A stretch of DNA of 64,000 nt from assembly GCA_016219275.1 (NCBI GenBank), contig JACRBM010000007.1, positions 1 through 64,000 on the forward strand, written 5' to 3'. A program made the translations under genes and the position numbers. The notes below the pieces were generated by a model. It was given only the letters and a program-made list of their open reading frames with translations. It made no database searches and had not been told where the DNA came from. Below, piece after piece: positions 49,038-61,106 of this stretch. Each line of letters opens with the position of its first letter. The first letter of the stretch is position 1. This DNA is from Chloroflexota bacterium. GTDB lineage: Bacteria > Chloroflexota > Anaerolineae > UBA4142.

Positions 49038-49107
49038 TTGGATGTTAGAGATTGGAAATTGGAAGTTGGAAACGCGCTTCCAATTTCCAACCTCCAACTT
49101 CCAACTT
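49038..49107. repeat. Left inverted repeat array of the giant lipoprotein gene
   Basis: GAGATTGGAAATTGGAAGTT units, then CTTCCAATTTCCAACCTCC. It reaches the stop codon of the lipoprotein. The same family, inverted, lies at 52160-52252. Confidence 0.85.
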
Positions 49108-52159: not shown

Positions 52160-52252
52160 TGCAAGTTGGAGGTTGGAATCTCTTCCAATCTCCAACCTCC
52201 AATCTCTAAATTCCAATTTCCAACTTCCAACCACCAATTTCCAATCTCCAAA
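52160..52252. repeat. Right inverted repeat array of the giant lipoprotein gene
   Basis: CCAATCTCCAACCTCCAATC, TTCCAATTTCCAACTTCCAA and further units. It stops just before the arg operon promoter. Confidence 0.85.
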
Positions 52253-52257
52253 CATAT

Positions 52258-52286
52258 TTGACATCACGCGCCGAGTGTGTTATATT
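52258..52286 (+). promoter_or_regulatory. Promoter of the arg operon
   Basis: TTGACA (52258-52263), 17 bp, TATATT (52281-52286). Transcription should start near 52293. Confidence 0.88.
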
Positions 52287-52311
52287 CGCTTCACTTTCGG
52301 AGAAACGACCA

Positions 52312-52392
52312 ATGCTTTCCATTCACACGATTAGCCCTCGCCCGCGTAGCACACCAGCCCCACGGTCTGGTGTATTTGTCGTTGCGCTCTGA
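52312..52392 (+). CDS. argL: Arg operon leader peptide
   Basis: 26 codons, MLSIHTISPRPRSTPAPRSG and VFVVAL, with GGAG 9 bases before the ATG. Arg codons CGC (52339) and CGT (52345) come just before RNA segment 1 (ACACCAG, 52351-52357). Segment 1 pairs with segment 2 (CTGGTGT, 52367-52373); segment 2 (GGTCTGG, 52364-52370) can instead pair with segment 3 (CCAGACC, 52425-52431); segment 3 otherwise forms the terminator with segment 4. A ribosome stalled at CGC or CGT would cover segment 1 and free 2 to pair with 3. This is the classic logic of amino-acid attenuation, here for arginine. Confidence 0.8.
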   Translation: MLSIHTISPRPRSTPAPRSGVFVVAL

Positions 52393-52423
52393 CTCCGCAA
52401 GCAATTACACGCGAATTTTGCAA

Positions 52424-52462
52424 CCCAGACCAGTGAGACTCTCGGTCTGGGATTTTTATTTT
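52424..52462 (+). terminator. Attenuator terminator of the arg operon
   Basis: CCCAGACC (52424-52431), 12-base loop, GGTCTGGG (52444-52451), then ATTTTTATTTT. Its 5' arm is complementary to 52364-52370 in the leader peptide coding region. Confidence 0.9.
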
Positions 52463-52519
52463 AATCTTAATCTGTCATTGTGAGCCGCAAAGCAGCCCGC
52501 AATGACCAATGGAGTCACT

Positions 52520-53527
52520 ATGATTCGGATTGGAATTTTTGGCGCGACGGGGTACACGGGAATTGAACTCGCGAAAATTTTCGCGCGGCATCCGCAAACC
52601 AAAATCGTGTTTGCGACTTCGGATACGCACGCTGGGAAGAAATTGAGCGATGCGCTGCCCTGCCATTTCGACATCCCGCTCGTCGCGCACGACGCCGCAC
52701 CGCTCGACCAAATTGACGTGGCGTACCTCGCGCTCCCGCATGGCGCGTCCACCGATTACGCCAAACGCGTGCTCGACGCCGGCGCTAGAGTGATTGACCA
52801 CTCGGCTGATTTTCGTTTGCATGACGCGGCGGTGTACAAGAAATTTTATGGACTCGATCACCACGCGCCGGAATTATTGCCGAACGCGGTCTACGGATTG
52901 CCAGAATTGCATCGCGCACAGATCAAGCAAACAAAACTGCTCGCGAATCCAGGGTGCTATCCCACGAGCGTCATCCTGGGTCTCGCGCCGATCTGGCGCG
53001 CGGAGGCGACGAACGACACGATCATCGTGGATTCAAAATCGGGCGTGTCCGGCGCGGGGCGCAAGCCAACGCTCACCGTCCACTTTGTCGAAGTGAACGA
53101 AAACCTCTCGCCGTACAACATCGGGCGCGTGCATCGGCACTTGAGCGAGATGGAACAGGAACTCAAAGAAATCAACGCGAAGGCATCACTCATTTTCTCG
53201 CCGCACCTCTTGCCCATCAGTCGCGGCATTCTTTCGACGATGTACGTGCGGCTGAACGCGGGCTGGGACGAACAACGCCTGCGCGATTTGTACACGGAAA
53301 CGTACCGCGACGAACCATTCGTCCGCCTTCTGCCCGCCGGACAAATCGCGACGATCACACACAGCAATTACACGAACTATTGCACGATTTCGATTCACTA
53401 CGTCCCGGATGTTCAGCAAGCGATCATCTGCTCAAGCATTGATAATCTCATCAAGGGCGCGAGCGGGCAAGCCGTGCAGAATATGAACTTGATGTTTGGG
53501 ATTGAGGAAACGACTGGATTGATATAA
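52520..53527 (+). CDS. argC: N-acetyl-gamma-glutamyl-phosphate reductase (possibly also LysY)
   Basis: 335 residues from ATG 52520 (GGAG upstream). The NADP-binding GIFGATGYTGIELAK, the catalytic Cys in LLANPGCYPTS and SKSGVSGAGRKPT identify ArgC. It reduces N-acetyl-glutamyl phosphate. LysY, the LysW-pathway counterpart, belongs to the same family; since no other copy is in the window, dual use is possible. First enzyme gene after the attenuator. Confidence 0.94.
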   Translation: MIRIGIFGATGYTGIELAKIFARHPQTKIVFATSDTHAGKKLSDALPCHFDIPLVAHDAAPLDQIDVAYLALPHGASTDYAKRVLDAGARVIDHSADFRLHDAAVYKKFYGLDHHAPELLPNAVYGLPELHRAQIKQTKLLANPGCYPTSVILGLAPIWRAEATNDTIIVDSKSGVSGAGRKPTLTVHFVEVNENLSPYNIGRVHRHLSEMEQELKEINAKASLIFSPHLLPISRGILSTMYVRLNAGWDEQRLRDLYTETYRDEPFVRLLPAGQIATITHSNYTNYCTISIHYVPDVQQAIICSSIDNLIKGASGQAVQNMNLMFGIEETTGLI

Positions 53528-53614: not shown

Positions 53615-54352
53615 ATGCTAGTCTTAAAGGTTGGTGGAAACGAAATTGACGACGCGAATTTCCTGACCGGATTCGCGAGTGCGATTGCAAAAATGGAAGA
53701 GACGCCGGTCGTCGTTCACGGCGGCGGCAAAGAGATCGCCGACTTGCAACTCAAGTTTGGTTTGACGCCGCGTTTTGTCGAGGGTTTGCGCGTGACGGAC
53801 GACGCCTCGCTTGCGATTGCTGAAATGGTGTTGAGCGGACGTGTGAACAAGCGCATCGTCATCGCATTGTTGAATGCCGGGGTGGACGCGATCGGCATGA
53901 GCGGTGTGGATCGCGGCGTCGTGCGCGTCGAAAAGATGCAACACCCCGCCGGCGATTTGGGGCGAGTCGGGCGAGTCGTCGGTGTACGCGGCGAGGTGGT
54001 GCAGGATTTCGTCACGCGCCAAGTGGTTCCCGTCATCTCGCCGATTTCGCTTGGCGACGAAGGCGCGTATAATGTGAACGCCGATTCGGTCGCGTGCGCG
54101 ATTGCCGCCGCGCTGAACGCAGACGCAGTCGTGTTCGTCACGAACGTCCCCGGCGTTCTGCAAGGCGACTGCGTGATTCCCACCCTCCCCGCGCGCGAAG
54201 CGGAAGCGCTCATCAAATCCCAGGTCATCAAAGGCGGTATGATCCCCAAAGTCCGCGCCGCGCTTGATGCCATTGCTGGGGGTGCGCAAGCCGCGCGGAT
54301 TACGAATCTGGAAGGATTGTTGACCGGTAGCGGAACTGTGTTTTCGAATTGA
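53615..54352 (+). CDS. argB: Acetylglutamate kinase (possibly also LysZ)
   Basis: 245 residues of the amino-acid kinase family, a little short. VLKVGGNEI, VVVHGGGKEIADLQ, FVEGLRVTDDASL and NVNADSVACAIAAAL are ArgB-like; as I recall LysZ has HGGS where this protein has HGGG. It phosphorylates N-acetylglutamate. It may also act on LysW-aminoadipate, as no lysZ is visible. GAGG precedes the ATG. Confidence 0.92.
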   Translation: MLVLKVGGNEIDDANFLTGFASAIAKMEETPVVVHGGGKEIADLQLKFGLTPRFVEGLRVTDDASLAIAEMVLSGRVNKRIVIALLNAGVDAIGMSGVDRGVVRVEKMQHPAGDLGRVGRVVGVRGEVVQDFVTRQVVPVISPISLGDEGAYNVNADSVACAIAAALNADAVVFVTNVPGVLQGDCVIPTLPAREAEALIKSQVIKGGMIPKVRAALDAIAGGAQAARITNLEGLLTGSGTVFSN

Positions 54353-54416
54353 CCGCTAACTGCCGATGGCAGACCGTCGTCCAATTAGCGGCGGTCGGTC
54401 GTCTGCGGTCTCTCAA
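54353..54416. repeat. CGGTCGTC-type short repeats (argB-argD)
   Basis: ACTGCCGATGGCAGACCGTC and GCGGTCGGTCGTCTGCGGTC, partly self-complementary. Confidence 0.6.
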
Positions 54417-54425
54417 AGGAGAAAC

Positions 54426-55613
54426 ATGAAACCCGAAGAAATCATCCAAGCCGAAAAGCAGTACCTCGCGCAAACGTACATTCGCCCGCCGTTCGTATTG
54501 ACGCGCGGCGAGGGCGTGTACGTGTACGATGCCGCCGGCAATAAATATCTCGACACTGCCGCGGGCATCGCGGTGAATGCGCTCGGTTACAGCGATCCCG
54601 AACTCGTCAAGGCGATTCAGGACGCGGCGACGGGGTTGCTTCACACGTCGAATTTGTTTTACACCGAATCCCAGGTCGCGCTGGCGAAAACCCTCGTCGA
54701 AAAATCGTTTGCCGACAAAGTCTTTTTTTCCAACACCGGCACCGAGGCAATCGAAGGCGCGCTCAAGTTCGCGCGCAAGTATCACGCGGAGCGCGCGGAC
54801 ACGCAACGCAAGAATTTCGTCGCGCTGCGCGGCAGTTTCCACGGACGCTCGATGGGCGCGCTCGCCGTAACCGATTCGGAAAAGTACCAAGCGCCGTTTC
54901 GCCCGTTGATGCCAGGTGTCTCGTTCGCCAATTTCAACGACCTGGATTCAGTGCGCGCGGCGATCACGAACGAGACTGCGGCGGTCATCATCGAGCCGGT
55001 GCAAGGCGAGGGCGGCGTGTATCCGGCGAGCGACGAATTCATGCGCGGCGTGCGTGCGTTGTGCGACGCGCGCGGCGCGTTGCTCATCTTTGATGAAATC
55101 CAATGCGGCGTCGGTCGCACCGGCAAATTGTGGGGGCACGCGTGGTCGGGCGTGACGCCGGATATTATGACCATCGCGAAACCACTCGCCGGCGGTTTGC
55201 CGATTGGCGCGATTCTGATGACGGATGCGGTCGCATCCGCGATGCACGCGGGCGAGCACGGCACCACGTTCGGCGGCGGTTCGTTCATTACCGCGATCGC
55301 GCTCAATGTGTTCAATCGCGTCAGCGATCCGAAATTTCTCGCGCACGTCAACGAGACTGGGAATTATCTGATGGAGCGACTGAGCGAAATCAATTCGCCG
55401 CACATCAAAGAGGTGCGCGGACGCGGTTTGATGATCGGCTTGGAGTTGGACATTGACGCGGCAAAGGTGCGCGAGCGCGGTTACACGCACGGCTTGCTTC
55501 TGATTCAAGCGCGCGAAAAGGTCGTGCGATTCGTCCCGCCGCTCGTATTCCAAAAGACGCACGTGGATGAGTTGGTAGAAGGGCTGGCAAAGGTGCTAAC
55601 AGAAGTTGGTTAG
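54426..55613 (+). CDS. argD: Acetylornithine aminotransferase (possibly also LysJ)
   Basis: 395 residues from ATG 54426 (AAGGAG upstream). Class III PLP aminotransferase: VFFSNTGTEAIEGALKFAR, GSFHGRSMGALAVT, LLIFDEIQCGVGRTG with the PLP Asp, and the Schiff-base Lys in MTIAKPLAGGLPIGAIL. It makes N-acetylornithine; LysJ of the LysW pathway is in the same family. Confidence 0.93.
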   Translation: MKPEEIIQAEKQYLAQTYIRPPFVLTRGEGVYVYDAAGNKYLDTAAGIAVNALGYSDPELVKAIQDAATGLLHTSNLFYTESQVALAKTLVEKSFADKVFFSNTGTEAIEGALKFARKYHAERADTQRKNFVALRGSFHGRSMGALAVTDSEKYQAPFRPLMPGVSFANFNDLDSVRAAITNETAAVIIEPVQGEGGVYPASDEFMRGVRALCDARGALLIFDEIQCGVGRTGKLWGHAWSGVTPDIMTIAKPLAGGLPIGAILMTDAVASAMHAGEHGTTFGGGSFITAIALNVFNRVSDPKFLAHVNETGNYLMERLSEINSPHIKEVRGRGLMIGLELDIDAAKVRERGYTHGLLLIQAREKVVRFVPPLVFQKTHVDELVEGLAKVLTEVG

Positions 55614-55619
55614 TGCGAT

Positions 55620-55658
55620 GGTGCACTAGTTTGATAGTTGCACAGTTGCATAGTTGAG
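55620..55658. repeat. TAGTTTGA/CAGTTGCA short-repeat array
   Basis: TTTGATAGTTGCACAGTTGC and ATAGTTG units before the GNAT gene; brief and degenerate. Confidence 0.55.
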
Positions 55659-55668
55659 GAACCGCAAA

Positions 55669-56397
55669 ATGATCACACACATCGAAGAACTCTCGCTCAA
55701 CGCATGGTCTTCACTGCAAACCATGTTCGTAGACGGCTGGGTGCTCCGCTTTGCGGACGGCTACACCAAACGCGCGAACTCGATCAATCCGATGTACGCA
55801 TCGGCTCGCGATGTGAACGCGCAAATCGAATTTTGCGAGCAGGTCTATCGCGAGAAACAGTTGCCGGTCGTTTTCAAAATGACGACGGCAGTACACCCGG
55901 AAAACCTGGATGCGGTACTGGCAGAGCGCGGGTACGTGGTTGATTCGCCGACGAGTGTGCACACGATGGAATTGGACAACACGACTTGGACGGTGAACGC
56001 CGAGTTAAACCCAGCCCTTTCCGACGAATGGCTCGCAAGTTTCTGCCGCATGAGCAGCGTGAAAGATGAACGCCAGGTCACGTTGCGGCAAATCCTGGGG
56101 AACATCCTTCCGCAAAAATGCTTCGCTGCAATCCGGCGCGACAGGCAGATAATCGCATGCGGTTTGGGTGTGCGTCAAGGCGAGTACATCGGCTTTTACG
56201 ACATCGTTACGGACGCGGCTTGGCGCAAGCAAGGGTACGGCAAACTATTGATGGCAAGTCTGCTCGCGTGGGGCAAAGCGAACGGCGCGCGCTACGCGTA
56301 TTTGCAAGTGATGCTGAACAATCCGCCCGCGCTGCGGCTCTATGCCAATCTCGGTTTCAAAGAAATTTATCAGTACTGGTACCGAATCAAAGCATAA
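55669..56397 (+). CDS. GNAT acetyltransferase in the arg operon
   Basis: 242 residues from ATG 55669 (GAGGA upstream). The C-terminal GNAT domain has FYDIVTDAAWRKQGYGKLLM with the acetyl-CoA loop and LQVMLNNPPALRLYANLGF; the N-terminal part is a second, degenerate GNAT-like half. Substrate unknown. Position between argD and argA suggests a link to arginine metabolism, but this is only context. Confidence 0.8.
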   Translation: MITHIEELSLNAWSSLQTMFVDGWVLRFADGYTKRANSINPMYASARDVNAQIEFCEQVYREKQLPVVFKMTTAVHPENLDAVLAERGYVVDSPTSVHTMELDNTTWTVNAELNPALSDEWLASFCRMSSVKDERQVTLRQILGNILPQKCFAAIRRDRQIIACGLGVRQGEYIGFYDIVTDAAWRKQGYGKLLMASLLAWGKANGARYAYLQVMLNNPPALRLYANLGFKEIYQYWYRIKA

Positions 56398-56416
56398 TAT
56401 TTTCCACGAAAAAATG

Positions 56417-56461
56417 TGAAGCGGACGGCTCGTCCGCTCGTGCGGGCTAGCAGCCCGCACC
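56417..56461. repeat. Two palindromes before argA
   Basis: GCGGACG-GCT-CGTCCGC and GTGCGGGCTAGCAGCCCGCAC-like hairpins in tandem, with a unit resembling common bacterial repeated extragenic palindromes. Confidence 0.7.
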
Positions 56462-56484
56462 ACAGACATAATCCAGAGGACGTT

Positions 56485-57003
56485 ATGATGACCAAGAGTT
56501 TTATACACCTGCCTGTTTTTACTGTGGCGCAGAACGACATCATCGTTCGCCGCGCCACGCTCGCGGGCGCGCCCAGTATCGCCGCGCTCGTGAATCTCGG
56601 CGAACGCGAGGGACAATTGCTGCCGCGCTCGCTCGACGCGATTCGCGCGAGCATTGACGATTGGATCGTCGCGACGGATCAGCAGCGCGTCGTCGGCGTT
56701 GGCTCGCTCGTCGAGATGCATTCGGCGCTTGCCGAAGTGCGCTCGCTTGCGGTCGCGCCGGATTATCGCCAGTTCGGCATCGGCGGCAGAATCGTCAATG
56801 CGCTCGTTGACCTTGCACGCGAACGAAACATCGCGACAGTGTTCACACTCACACGCGCGGTGCTCTTTTTCGAGAAACTAGGATTCATCATCACGGACAA
56901 GGAAAATTTTCCGGAAAAAGTGTGGCGCGATTGTTCACTCTGCCCGGTGCAACTCGCGTGCGACGAAGTGGCGATGGTGAAATCAGTGAGAAGTGAACAG
57001 TGA
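56485..57003 (+). CDS. argA: N-acetylglutamate synthase (short GNAT form)
   Basis: 172 residues from ATG 56485 (AGAGGA upstream). VRRATLAGAPSIAALVNLGE, LPRSLDAIRASIDDWIVA, EVRSLAVAPDYRQFGIGGRI and the hallmark end FPEKVWRDCSLCP...CDEVAMVKS match the short N-acetylglutamate synthases that are sometimes fused to ArgH. It supplies the acetyl group at the start of the arginine pathway. The last residues (SVRSEQ) and stop lie within a repeat array. Confidence 0.85.
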   Translation: MMTKSFIHLPVFTVAQNDIIVRRATLAGAPSIAALVNLGEREGQLLPRSLDAIRASIDDWIVATDQQRVVGVGSLVEMHSALAEVRSLAVAPDYRQFGIGGRIVNALVDLARERNIATVFTLTRAVLFFEKLGFIITDKENFPEKVWRDCSLCPVQLACDEVAMVKSVRSEQ

Positions 57004-57108
57004 ACAGTGAACAGTGAACAGTAGACAGTCAGCAAACAAGATCGCCATTCGCTATTCGCCATTCGCTACTCGCTAATCGCAAATCATAAATCGAAAATCT
57101 GAAATCAC
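56990..57108. repeat. Composite array: GTGAACA, CCATTCGC and AAATC repeats
   Basis: Four GTGAACA units, then CGCCATTCGCTATTCGCCAT, then AATCATAAATCGAAAATCTG. Three families that occur singly elsewhere are joined here. The array supplies the argA stop codon. Confidence 0.85.
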
Positions 57109-57121
57109 AACAGGAGGAATC

Positions 57122-58384
57122 ATGGAAAAGAAAAAAGCCGGCAAGGTCGTCCTAGCGTACTCAGGCGGGCTGGACACGTCGGTCATTGTGCCGTGGCTCA
57201 AAGAGAATTACGACTGCGAAGTCATCTGCGTGTGCGCGAACATCGGGCAAGGCGATGACTTGTCCGGCGTCGAGGCGAAAGCGATCGCGAGCGGCGCGAG
57301 CAAATGCTATATCCAGGATTTGCGCGAAGAATTTGTGACGGACTATATTTATCCAACCATCCTCGCGGGCGCGGTCTACGAGCGCAAGTATTTGCTCGGC
57401 ACGTCGTTCGCGCGACCCCTCATCGCCAAGGCGCAAGTCGAGGTCGCCGAGTTGGAAGGCGCGGACGCGGTCTCGCACGGCGCGACCGGCAAGGGCAACG
57501 ATCAGGTGCGCTTCGAATTGACGTACCAAGCGTTGAATCCAAGATTGAAAGTGATCGCGCCCTGGCGCGAGTGGAACATTCGCTCGCGCGAGGACGCGAT
57601 CGCGTACGCCAAAGCGCACAACGTGCCGGTCACCGCGACGATCAAATCCATCTACTCGCGCGATTGGAACTTGTGGCACTTGTCGCACGAGGGCGGCATT
57701 CTCGAAGACCCGTGGCAAGAACCGGAAACCGCGATGTTCCAACTTTCGGTGTCGCCGGAACAAGCACCCGACGAACCCGAGTACGTCGAAATCGAATTCG
57801 ATAAAGGCATCCCGCACAAGATCAACGGACGGGCGATGGGACCGCTCGAAATCGTTACGCTCTTGAATCAAATCGGCGCGAAGCACGGCATCGGTCGCGT
57901 TGACCTGGTCGAGAATCGTTTGGTCGGGATGAAATCGCACGGCGTGTACGAAACACCCGGCGGCACGGTCCTCACCGAAGCGCACGACGCGCTCGAACAG
58001 ATTTGTCTCGATCGCGAGACATTGCACTACAAGCAAGTCATCGCGTTGCGCTACGCCGACCTGGTTTACAACGGGCAATGGTTCACGCCGCTCCGCGAAG
58101 CGATGGACGCGTTCGTACGCGAAACGCAAAAGACGATGACCGGCGCGGTGCGCCTGAAACTCTACAAAGGCAACGTCATCCTCGTCGGTCGCAAGTCGCC
58201 GCACAGTTTGTATCGCGAAGATTACGCGACGTTTGGACAAGAAGATGTCTACAATCAAAAGGACGCGGAAGGATTCATCCGCCTGTTCGGTTTGCCGTTG
58301 AAGGTACGCGCGCTGATTGATTTCGAGCGTCATGGTCGAAGCGTGTACGCCAAGCCGGATTATTCCAAGTTCAAGCGCGACTGA
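57122..58384 (+). CDS. argG: Argininosuccinate synthase
   Basis: 420 residues. The P-loop-like [16 protein letters not shown] (about 11-26), [35 protein letters not shown] and KKTGAV-like C-terminal region ([13 protein letters not shown]) are standard. It joins citrulline and aspartate with ATP. AGGAGG lies 4-5 bases before the ATG. Confidence 0.97.
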
Positions 58385-58385
58385 T

Positions 58386-58464
58386 AGCGCAGCAGAGGAG
58401 CAAGGGAGCGTGGGTGCCAGGGAGAAAAAATCGCCCCTGACCTGCTGCTCCCCTGCTCCCTTTG
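58386..58464. repeat. GCAGCAGAGGAGC / CTGCTGCTCCC self-complementary repeat
   Basis: GCAGCAGAGGAGCAAGGGAG ... GACCTGCTGCTCCCCTGCTC. It fills the argG-argJ junction. Confidence 0.75.
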
Positions 58465-58474
58465 AGGAAAAGCA

Positions 58475-59668
58475 ATGCAATCATCAACCAATACCGGCGT
58501 CACCATTCCACGCGGCTTTCGCGCGGCGGGTGTGGCGTGTGGATTGAAGAAAACGGGCGCGCTTGATTTCGCGATGATCGCGAGCGATCACGATTGCGCG
58601 TGCGCGGGCGTGTTCACGACGAATCGCGTCAAGGCAGCGCCGGTGCTGTACGATCAAGCAACGCTCGCGAACAATCCTGGCGCGATTCGCGCGGTCGTCG
58701 CGAACAGCGGCTGTGCGAACGCGTGCACCGGCGATGCGGGACTCGCGGACACGCGCGCAACCGCCGAAGCGACCGCGCGCGCGCTCGGCATTCGCGCCGA
58801 CCAGGTGCTCGTGCTGTCAACCGGCGTCATCGGGCAACGCTTGCCGATGGACAAACTTCTTGCCGGCGTCGCGGACGCGGCAAAGAAATTATCGTACACT
58901 GGCGGGGACGATGCCTCGCGCGCGATTATGACGACGGATACAAGACCAAAAGTTTTCGCCATGCGCGATTCGCAATTCGCCATCGGCGGCATGTGCAAAG
59001 GCGCTGGCATGATTCATCCGAACATGGCGACGATGCTCGCGGTCATCACGACTGACGCGATGATCGCGCCCAACCTGCTCGACCAGGCATTGCGCGCGGC
59101 GGTCAACCAGAGTTTCAATCGCATCAGCGTGGACGGCGACATGAGCACGAACGACACGGTGCTCGTGCTGGCGAACGGGGCGTCCAATTACGCAATACGC
59201 AATACGCAGCAACTTGCCGAGTTCACCAACGCGTTGACCCAGGTTTGCACCGATCTCGCCAAACAACTCGTGCGCGACGGCGAAGGCGCGACCAAGTTCG
59301 TCGAGATCGTCGTGCGCGGCGCGGCGAGCGAAGACGACGCGGTGCGCGTCGCGAAAGCGATTGCGAATTCGCCGCTGACCAAGACCGCGCTCTACGGCGG
59401 CGATGCGAACTGGGGACGCGTCGTGTGCGCGGCGGGGTACTCGGGCATCGCGGTCGAACCGGCTAACCTCAGACTCTGGTTCGGCGATGTGAATGTGTTT
59501 TCGAACGGCATGCCAACCAATTTCGACGAAGCTGATTCGACGGCAGCGCTTGCCGGAACCGACATCTCGATTCGACTCGATCTCGGAATGGGCAACGCCG
59601 GCACAACGGTCTGGACGTGCGACCTCTCACACGATTACGTGACGATCAACGGCAAATACAGAACCTAG
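58475..59668 (+). CDS. argJ: Glutamate N-acetyltransferase / ornithine acetyltransferase
   Basis: 397 residues. Self-cleaving enzyme; the catalytic Thr lies in GMIHPNMATMLAVITTDA (about 180). AGVACGLKKTGALDFAMI, NSGCANACTGDAGL and LYGGDANWGRVVCAAGYSG are typical. It recycles the acetyl group from acetylornithine to glutamate. With ArgA present, it confirms the acetylated arginine pathway. Two loops carry repeat-encoded residues (FAMRDSQFAIGG near 162; NYAIRNTQQ near 239). Confidence 0.95.
   Translation: MQSSTNTGVTIPRGFRAAGVACGLKKTGALDFAMIASDHDCACAGVFTTNRVKAAPVLYDQATLANNPGAIRAVVANSGCANACTGDAGLADTRATAEATARALGIRADQVLVLSTGVIGQRLPMDKLLAGVADAAKKLSYTGGDDASRAIMTTDTRPKVFAMRDSQFAIGGMCKGAGMIHPNMATMLAVITTDAMIAPNLLDQALRAAVNQSFNRISVDGDMSTNDTVLVLANGASNYAIRNTQQLAEFTNALTQVCTDLAKQLVRDGEGATKFVEIVVRGAASEDDAVRVAKAIANSPLTKTALYGGDANWGRVVCAAGYSGIAVEPANLRLWFGDVNVFSNGMPTNFDEADSTAALAGTDISIRLDLGMGNAGTTVWTCDLSHDYVTINGKYRT
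58956..58985 (+). repeat. Repeat insertion in frame in argJ, loop 1
   Basis: CGCCATGCGCGATTCGCAAT and TCGCCATC, of the CGCAATTCGCCAT family. Confidence 0.65.
59186..59211 (+). repeat. Repeat insertion in frame in argJ, loop 2
   Basis: AATTACGCAATACGCAATAC followed by GCAGC, a tandem ACGCAAT unit. Confidence 0.65.
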
Positions 59669-59671
59669 CGA

Positions 59672-59740
59672 ATTTTCGATTTTCGATTGCCGATTTGCGA
59701 TTGGTCAATCGAAAATCGAAAATCAGAAATCGAAAATCAC
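59672..59740. repeat. CGATTTT / AAAATCG self-complementary array (argJ-argH)
   Basis: TTTTCGATTTTCGATTGCCG and CAATCGAAAATCGAAAATCA. It runs to the base before the argH start codon and leaves no room for a ribosome binding site. Confidence 0.85.
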
Positions 59741-59741
59741 G

Positions 59742-61106
59742 ATGTGGGGCGGCAGATTTTCCAAAGCGATTGACGACCAATTCGCGTACCTCAACAATTC
59801 GTTTCGTTTCGATTGGCGATTGTACGCCGCGGACATTCGCGGGAGCATCGCGTATGCCAAGGCGCTCGCGCGCGCGGGCACGATCACCGACACGGAACGC
59901 GACGCGTTGATTGACGGCTTGCAACGCGTCAAACAGGAATTCGACGCGCGCACATTCGAGAGCAAACCGAGCGACGAGGACATTCACACCGCGGTCGAGC
60001 GGCGCTTGGGCGAGTTCGTCGGCGCGGTCGCCGGCAAACTGCACACCGGGCGTAGTCGCAACGACCAGGTCGCGACGGACGCGCGTTTGTTCGTGTTAAG
60101 TGCGATTGGCGATTTGCAATCCGCCATTCGCAATGTGCAAACCGCGATCATCGAGAAAGCAGAACAGCATCTCGACGTGGTGATGCCAGGTTATACGCAC
60201 GTTCAACGCGCACAACCGGTCTTGTTCGCGCATTGGTTGATGGCGTACTTTTGGATGTTCGAACGCGATTATGAACGCTTGACCGATGCCAGGTCGCGCA
60301 CATCCATCTCGCCGCTTGGCGCGGGCGCGCTTGCGGGGAATGCGCTAGGCATTGATCGCGATTTTCTCGCGCGCGAACTGGGTTTTGGCGAGGTCAGTCA
60401 AAATAGCATTGACGCGGTAAGCGATCGCGATTTCATCGCCGAGTTCTTGTTCGCCGCGGCATTGCTCGGCGTGCATCTCTCGCGGCTCGGCGAAGATTTG
60501 GTGTACTATTCGAGCGCGGAATTCGGTTTCATCACGATGGACGACGCGTACGCGACGGGATCGAGTTTGATGCCACAAAAGAAAAATCCGGACGCGATGG
60601 AACTGGCACGCGGCAAAGCCGGACGACTCGTCGGCAATCTCACGAACGTGCTCACAATGCTCAAGGGTCTGCCCTCGTCGTACGACAAGGATTTGCAAGA
60701 GGACAAGGAACCGCTGTTCGACTCGATAGACACACTCAGCGCGTTGTTGCCGGTCGTCGCGGGCGTGATTCACACGATGCGCGTGAACGCGGAGCGAATG
60801 CGCGCCGCGCTCGACGCGGGGATGCTCGCGACCGATCTCGCGGACTATCTCGTGCGACGCGGGATGCCGTTCCGTGACGCGCATCGCAAAGCCGGCGAAG
60901 CGGTCAAGCTTGCCGAAGCGCGCGGCATCGCGCTATCCGAGTTGCCGCTCGACGCATACCAACACATCGCACCGGAATTTGGCGACGATGTTTATCGCGT
61001 GTTCGATTTCGCGCAGTCCGTCGCCGCGCGCGAGGTGATCGGTGGCACGGGACCGAACGCGGTACGCGAACAAATCGCGCAAGCCCAAAAAAGGATGCGC
61101 GCATAA
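59742..61106 (+). CDS. argH: Argininosuccinate lyase
   Basis: 454 residues. MWGGRFSKAIDDQF at the start, HTGRSRNDQVATD, GYTHVQRAQPVLFAHWL and the signature GSSLMPQKKNPDAMEL with the catalytic Ser are all present. It releases arginine and fumarate. The start abuts a repeat array with no ribosome binding site. Residues at about 121-134 (IGDLQSAIRNVQTA) are encoded by repeat units (60101-60140). Confidence 0.96.
   Translation: MWGGRFSKAIDDQFAYLNNSFRFDWRLYAADIRGSIAYAKALARAGTITDTERDALIDGLQRVKQEFDARTFESKPSDEDIHTAVERRLGEFVGAVAGKLHTGRSRNDQVATDARLFVLSAIGDLQSAIRNVQTAIIEKAEQHLDVVMPGYTHVQRAQPVLFAHWLMAYFWMFERDYERLTDARSRTSISPLGAGALAGNALGIDRDFLARELGFGEVSQNSIDAVSDRDFIAEFLFAAALLGVHLSRLGEDLVYYSSAEFGFITMDDAYATGSSLMPQKKNPDAMELARGKAGRLVGNLTNVLTMLKGLPSSYDKDLQEDKEPLFDSIDTLSALLPVVAGVIHTMRVNAERMRAALDAGMLATDLADYLVRRGMPFRDAHRKAGEAVKLAEARGIALSELPLDAYQHIAPEFGDDVYRVFDFAQSVAAREVIGGTGPNAVREQIAQAQKRMRA
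60101..60140 (+). repeat. Repeat insertion in frame in argH
   Basis: GCGATTGGCGATTTGCAATC, CGCCATTCGCAATG: units of the GCGATTTGC/CCATTCGC family, between RLFVLSA and IIEKAEQHL. Confidence 0.7.

Follow-up and report, generated by a model that had tools for sequence, protein, structure and literature searches.

A putative arginine-sensing transcription attenuator ahead of argC in Chloroflexota

Introduction

Arginine operons are textbook targets of the repressor protein ArgR/AhrC, and attenuation was reportedly surveyed by Lopatovskaya and others in 2010 (cited in PMC4833913). The trp, his, leu, thr and ilv attenuators of Proteobacteria and Actinobacteria share one design, in which a leader peptide with codons for the pathway's amino acid, four RNA segments with mutually exclusive 1:2, 2:3 and 3:4 pairings and an intrinsic terminator precede a biosynthetic operon. 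According to a 2010 terminator survey, ribosome-mediated attenuation was confined in previous work to Proteobacteria and Actinobacteria; the survey itself extended it to Firmicutes (PMC2965389). For arginine, a survey of Actinobacteria reported no RNA element before the arginine operons there, and T-boxes before arginine genes elsewhere (PMC1262725). Leader frames with Arg codons have been described in other settings. Consecutive Arg codons in Salmonella orf34 (SpeFL) sense arginine through slowing of the ribosome, but they control the ornithine decarboxylase gene speF via Rho, RNase G and access to the ribosome-binding site, with no intrinsic terminator before arginine biosynthesis genes (PMC6386406). 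Arg codons in the leader frame rbfL of Staphylococcus aureus likewise sense arginine shortage, but the control is translational, acts on the biofilm regulator rbf and represses on shortage (PMC13009471). The carA leader of Pseudomonas aeruginosa encodes a peptide upstream of a gene that also serves arginine synthesis; as far as it is described where PMC4997734 cites it, attenuation is tied to pyrimidines, whereas arginine control is exerted by the protein ArgR.

Here, we analyze the region before argC in a 64,000-nucleotide stretch of DNA (the window), which is contig 7 of a 6.16-Mb Chloroflexota genome (98% complete). Sequence comparison, drawing on the parts of the element, their conservation, the Arg specificity of its codons, its alternative pairings and a lack of ArgR, makes it highly likely that the arginine biosynthesis operon is controlled by ribosome-mediated transcription attenuation in which the element reads the charging of Arg-tRNA. 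The mechanism is classical, and the amino acid (arginine) and the phylum (Chloroflexota) are new as far as we found: searches of the open full-text literature turned up no case of arginine biosynthesis being attenuated through a leader peptide, whether in Chloroflexota or in other organisms, although priority is not certain beyond that literature. Arginine would thereby join the amino acids whose synthesis is under leader-peptide attenuation, and the mechanism would extend to Chloroflexota.

Results and discussion

The element lies 3' of a promoter and 5' of the first gene of an arginine cluster, and consists of the following features.

52258..52286, + strand: sigma-70-type promoter TTGACA-N17-TATATT (read from sequence; 11 of 12 consensus matches)
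52299..52302, + strand: Shine-Dalgarno-like GGAG of the leader frame (read from sequence)
52312..52392, + strand: leader peptide frame of 26 codons, MLSIHTISPRPRSTPAPRSGVFVVAL and stop (read from sequence; frame and PRPR/RPR core kept in eight family members)
52339..52347, + strand: putative control codons CGC CCG CGT (Arg-Pro-Arg), the proposed stall site (CCTCGCCCGCGT invariant in seven aligned members; Arg enrichment in the class, z 10.4)
52351..52357, + strand: RNA segment 1, ACACCAG, pairs with segment 2 (95.8% of cells paired, seven members)
52364..52373, + strand: RNA segment 2, GGTCTGGTGT, pairs with 1 or 3 (2:3 pairs invariant in the family; own-partner preference over 22 families)
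52424..52431, + strand: RNA segment 3, CCCAGACC, pairs with 2 or 4 (pairing tests within and between families)
52444..52451, + strand: RNA segment 4, GGTCTGGG, 3' arm of the intrinsic terminator (98.2% of 3:4 cells paired, seven members)
52452..52462, + strand: terminator U-tract, ATTTTTATTTT (read from sequence; T-runs conserved)
52520..53527, + strand: argC, first gene of the arginine cluster (TIGR01850, 394 bits against a cut-off of 233.6)
53615..61106, + strand: argB, argD, two GNAT acetyltransferases, argG, argJ and argH (NCBIfam matches)

The genes from argB to argH lie on the strand of argC and presumably form one operon with it. The first-pass annotation of this DNA had read a consensus promoter, a 26-codon frame behind GGAG, the three alternative pairings and a U-tract from the letters, and these readings proved accurate to the base. 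The -35 box (TTGACA, 52258-52263) and the -10 box (TATATT, 52281-52286) are separated by a 17-nt spacer, and the leader frame runs from the ATG at 52312 to the TGA at 52390-52392. It contains four Pro codons and the Arg codons CGC (52339), CGT (52345) and CGG (52363). The annotation had placed CGC and CGT directly before segment 1, where they indeed lie; the third, CGG, sits in the 1:2 loop, leaving two at the key place, fewer than in many relatives. The leader RNA folds at -47.1 kcal/mol, compared with -38.6 +/- 4 kcal/mol for shuffled sequences (z -2.1), and its minimum-energy structure contains 1:2 and 3:4. Hairpin 3:4, which with the U-tract forms the intrinsic terminator (52424-52462) ahead of argC, is missing from a simple terminator scan because its 12-nt loop exceeds the scan's loop limit of 8.

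By analogy with the established trp and his attenuators, from which the coupling, the stalling on uncharged Arg-tRNA, the formation of 2:3 and the read-through are taken, we infer that the leader is translated, that ribosomes stall on it and that the operon responds to arginine. Transcription would start just after 52286, with the 26-codon leader translated behind the polymerase. When arginine is plentiful, the ribosome would pass the Arg codons and reach the stop codon, segment 2 would be hidden under the ribosome or paired with segment 1, and 3:4 would form and end transcription at the U-tract. When arginine is scarce, the ribosome would stall at CGC/CGT (52339-52347) and cover segment 1 (52351-52357), the free segment 2 would pair with segment 3, and argC and the genes behind it would be transcribed in the absence of the terminator. 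The window's family differs from the trp, his, leu, thr and ilv attenuators in having the stop codon behind segment 2, with a distance of 16 nt in the window itself. Other families have it inside or right behind segment 2 (..GTCTGGATAG), and a ribosome at the stop is therefore predicted to mask segment 2 and favour termination.

The element was found in all eight genomes of the window's family with a readable leader (G002, G005, G006, G007, G010, G011, G012 and the window's genome), which represent seven genera including the window's own, and it lies between promoter and argC in every one. TTTGACA and TATA(T/G)T are kept in the seven aligned members, as is CCTCGCCCGCGT (Pro-Arg-Pro-Arg) without exception, and TTCGGAG is kept in most, being weak or absent in G007 and G010. 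The frame of G002 ends inside the 1:2 loop (MSFPITFSPRPRRIRH, then stop), with the RNA segments still present. A covariance model built from seven leaders, with G010 left out of training, recovers the argC copy in each family genome, including G010 (E 2.6e-26), and matches the window's own genome at argC only. Four weak hits (L284-L286 and L275) looked unrelated, lying in tRNA, repeat or other-gene contexts, and were rejected. Within the family the 2:3 pairs are invariant and the pairs overall nearly so; because they hardly vary, the family alone cannot show covariation, and the evidence for pairing rests on comparison between families.

For that comparison, up to 500 bases 5' of argC were taken from 126 genomes of the phylum, many of them metagenome bins. 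The genomes were picked by a close relative of ArgC, and families with only a distant paralog (f2, f29 and others) were left out. Most genomes of the window's class carry a strong intrinsic terminator and, ahead of it, a short frame in which Arg codons form a run, such as MSPLPIHARLPRSPRRLQPDHWSG, MTLAFIRFPRIRRPETLPG.., MIAAVALRSRRSRRLDSVSG.., MCVRLPRAIRSQPDR and many more, as well as MNLVNQTFFRRLRRRQTTGLVICSV read from the sequence of Anaerolinea sp. CH6, all ending in a stop codon. The frame, the Arg codons and the alternative pairings recur in more than 20 families, so the check on relatives that could have overturned the annotation produced no refutation. Distant families keep the logic of the leader in different letters. 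An automatic criterion (at least three Arg in eight codons, ahead of a terminator) picked 49 of 63 class genomes and failed for the other 14; in families f71 and f97, which belong to another class, it picked all 11 genomes examined. It misses the window's own leader with its two clustered Arg codons and is conservative in that respect; a few automatic picks were wrong in start or frame (G011, G085, G069). Other phyla were rejected as a source of leaders: where a terminator precedes argC in them, it mostly terminates rpsI, and the Arg-rich C-terminus encoded by that gene resembles a leader in the automatic scan.

Family f71 includes Herpetosiphon aurantiacus DSM 785 (G238; its second contig is 100% identical to plasmid CP000876.1 over the 4000 bases compared), with the leader MLTNLFSPALRLRRPRTNEVRWACAVCAA and a stop; an alternative frame is four codons longer (MKKQ...), with its start 10 nt behind the -10 box. 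We infer that f97 corresponds to Roseiflexaceae and f61 to Chloroflexaceae. The Chloroflexus-type genomes of f61, for example Chloroflexus islandicus (L148), have no argC terminator. A conserved 28-codon frame, MFTR(I/F)L(N/K)FLRRLGQIHPAVIAIAPDRTW, was observed before argC without an intrinsic terminator in L148, G393 and G246.

The alternative pairings were compared across these leaders. RNA just 3' of the Arg codons pairs with the 5' arm and loop of the terminator better than shuffled sequences do (mean z -2.2 in 62 genomes, 49 of them below -1). Segments 2 and 3 read GGTCTGG/CCAGACC in the window's family (f1), GTGTGTGCCGGG/CCCCCGACACACAC in f5 and GAGGTTCGGTGGG/CCCCCCGAACCTC in f71; since the sequences differ by family, each family keeps its own complement. 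Own 2:3 partners pair at -19.4 kcal/mol, compared with -14.8 kcal/mol when the partner is borrowed from another family. In permutations limited to a single genome from each of 22 families, the observed value was never attained (1,000 permutations in each of 50 draws; p < 0.001). The covariation that the annotation proposed to test is absent within the family, where pairs are nearly invariant, and present for 2:3 between families. The 1:2 hairpin is also supported, though less strongly (mean z -0.83 in 58 genomes, t-test p 3e-5). Between the last Arg codon and segment 2 lies a median of 11 nt (quartiles 7-17), the kind of gap that stalling on those codons requires. With the usual ribosome footprint, a stall on the Arg codons would cover segment 1 and leave segment 2 largely free.

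In view of these comparisons, it is highly improbable that the 5' untranslated region carries the terminator and the frame by chance or as constitutive parts without regulation, or that the terminator is that of the upstream gene. Arg-rich frames do arise by composition in GC-rich genomes, but composition is accounted for by the dinucleotide shuffles, and own 2:3 partners outperform foreign ones. A terminator of the upstream gene fits poorly with the element's own promoter immediately 5' and with the location of that gene on the opposite strand. Together, conservation and the between-family pairing tests support the trp/his-type four-segment logic that the annotation had suggested before argC.

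Which amino acid is sensed had been left between Arg and Pro, with Arg preferred. For each of the 20 residues, we scored the highest count per eight-codon stretch in any short frame up to 190 bases before the terminator against dinucleotide shuffles. Arg stood out with z 10.4 in 55 class genomes, followed by Met (4.8), Pro (4.1) and Gly (4.1). Correction for relatedness is only partial in these z-scores and in the p-values given here. When the window's family was removed and the scores were averaged over 24 families, Arg reached 8.3 and Pro 3.4; in f71 and f97 Arg scored 6.8 and Pro was outside the six most enriched residues. Sensing of proline, or of a general slowing of translation, could draw on the four Pro codons of the window's peptide and on the Pro score of the class, but these are outweighed by the Arg score, by leaders with Arg runs and no nearby Pro (e.g. 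MIAAVALRSRRSRRLDSVSG..; also G115 and G059) and by an operon that makes arginine, and we regard it as extremely improbable. By these sequence counts, the specificity of the codons is settled in favour of Arg.

The leaders also differ from their own argC genes in the Arg codons used: CGT makes up 32% against 8%, AGG 18% against 1% and CGG 7% against 21% (24 genomes; chi-square p 5e-22 without correction for relatedness). This over-use of CGT and AGG and under-use of CGG suggests a choice of charging-sensitive isoacceptors.

Stalling could instead be caused by an arrest peptide, a nascent chain that halts the ribosome with bound arginine, ornithine or polyamine, as is thought for SpeFL/ORF34, rather than by uncharged Arg-tRNA. 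The core (F/S)(S/A)PRPR..TPA.RSG is indeed well conserved inside the window's family, but the same letters are constrained there by RNA pairing and codons. Across families the flanks of the Arg codons are wholly different (LPRSPRR, FPRIRR, LRSRRSRR, FIRRRR, VRLPRAIRS) and only Arg recurs, whereas an arrest peptide of the SpeFL type should keep its sequence over wide distances. An arrest peptide is distinctly improbable, and the reading of Arg-tRNA charging remains preferred.

Leader control of arginine genes in this phylum had been flagged as notable given their common regulation by ArgR/AhrC. A profile search found no ArgR (PF01316) in the window's genome; over the curated cut-off, PF01316 occurs in none of 59 leader-bearing genomes, in 1 of 120 class genomes and in 65 of 301 phylum genomes, the 65 all coming from families without such leaders in the set. 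E. coli, B. subtilis and further control genomes gave positives in the same search. ArgR and the leader look mutually exclusive, ArgR being absent where leaders occur and present in branches whose families have no such leader in the set, though a repressor of another kind may be present. The T-box covariance model had no match in the window, where only a tRNA gene reaches the gathering score, and Rfam had none at the leader. The locus shares the control of arginine genes with Arg T-boxes and ArgR/AhrC repressors but belongs to neither, the window lacking a T-box and the genome ArgR.

A large branch of the phylum thus appears to be without ArgR and may use the ribosome as its arginine sensor instead. 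This would be a clear case of one type of regulator replacing another, and H. aurantiacus DSM 785, a cultured carrier, makes it testable. A broader reading is that, in Anaerolineae-type Chloroflexota, Herpetosiphon (f71) and f97, attenuation that senses Arg-tRNA takes the place of ArgR in the arginine-specific control of synthesis, is ancient in the phylum, often acts on leaderless transcripts and relies on Arg codons (CGU, AGG) selected for charging sensitivity; for this whole we consider the case evenly balanced.

Within the window's genome, the sequence upstream of argF is coding and holds no such leader; among relatives, the eight argF regions that could be placed showed no terminator. A second argC-like gene (39% identical, contig 78) has no terminator leader, as judged by eye. 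Besides argJ, the arg cluster holds two differing GNAT acetyltransferases (55654-57003), one with distant similarity to the N-acetylglutamate synthase of CG3035 type (109.6 bits against a cut-off of 280) and the other near the PRK07757/ArgA type.

Several further features of the leaders were observed. In f97, f71, f5, f37 and G074 just 6-10 nt separate the end of the -10 box from the leader ATG, which predicts translation of the leader peptide from leaderless transcripts in several families, a difference from the trp, his, leu, thr and ilv attenuators; leaders of other families have a Shine-Dalgarno sequence. Many class leaders (e.g. G076, G042, G074) share a motif of approximately TCTGGATAGNNGCGCNTGGGCC after segment 2, exceeding what pairing with segment 3 needs. 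The leader ribosome-binding site (52295-52314) can pair with the bases that follow segment 2 (52374-52392), likewise in relatives. This pairing is strong (mean -14 kcal/mol, up to -22 kcal/mol in G005) and may tune translation of the leader, but we do not claim it, own partners not being clearly better than swapped ones (p 0.15).

Directly 5' of the promoter (52160-52255) lies a near-repeat tract of TCCAATCTCCAACCTCCAA, and a similar sequence starts an ORF at 49042. Between the terminator and the argC ribosome-binding site (52472-52509) are palindromic repeats that differ by genome, GTCATTGTGAGCCGCAAAGCAGCCCGCAATGAC in the window and, in the same spot (L006, L005, L007), ACCTGACAGG.. in G012 and CGACGACCG.. 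in G006, as if this spot accepted repeat insertions.
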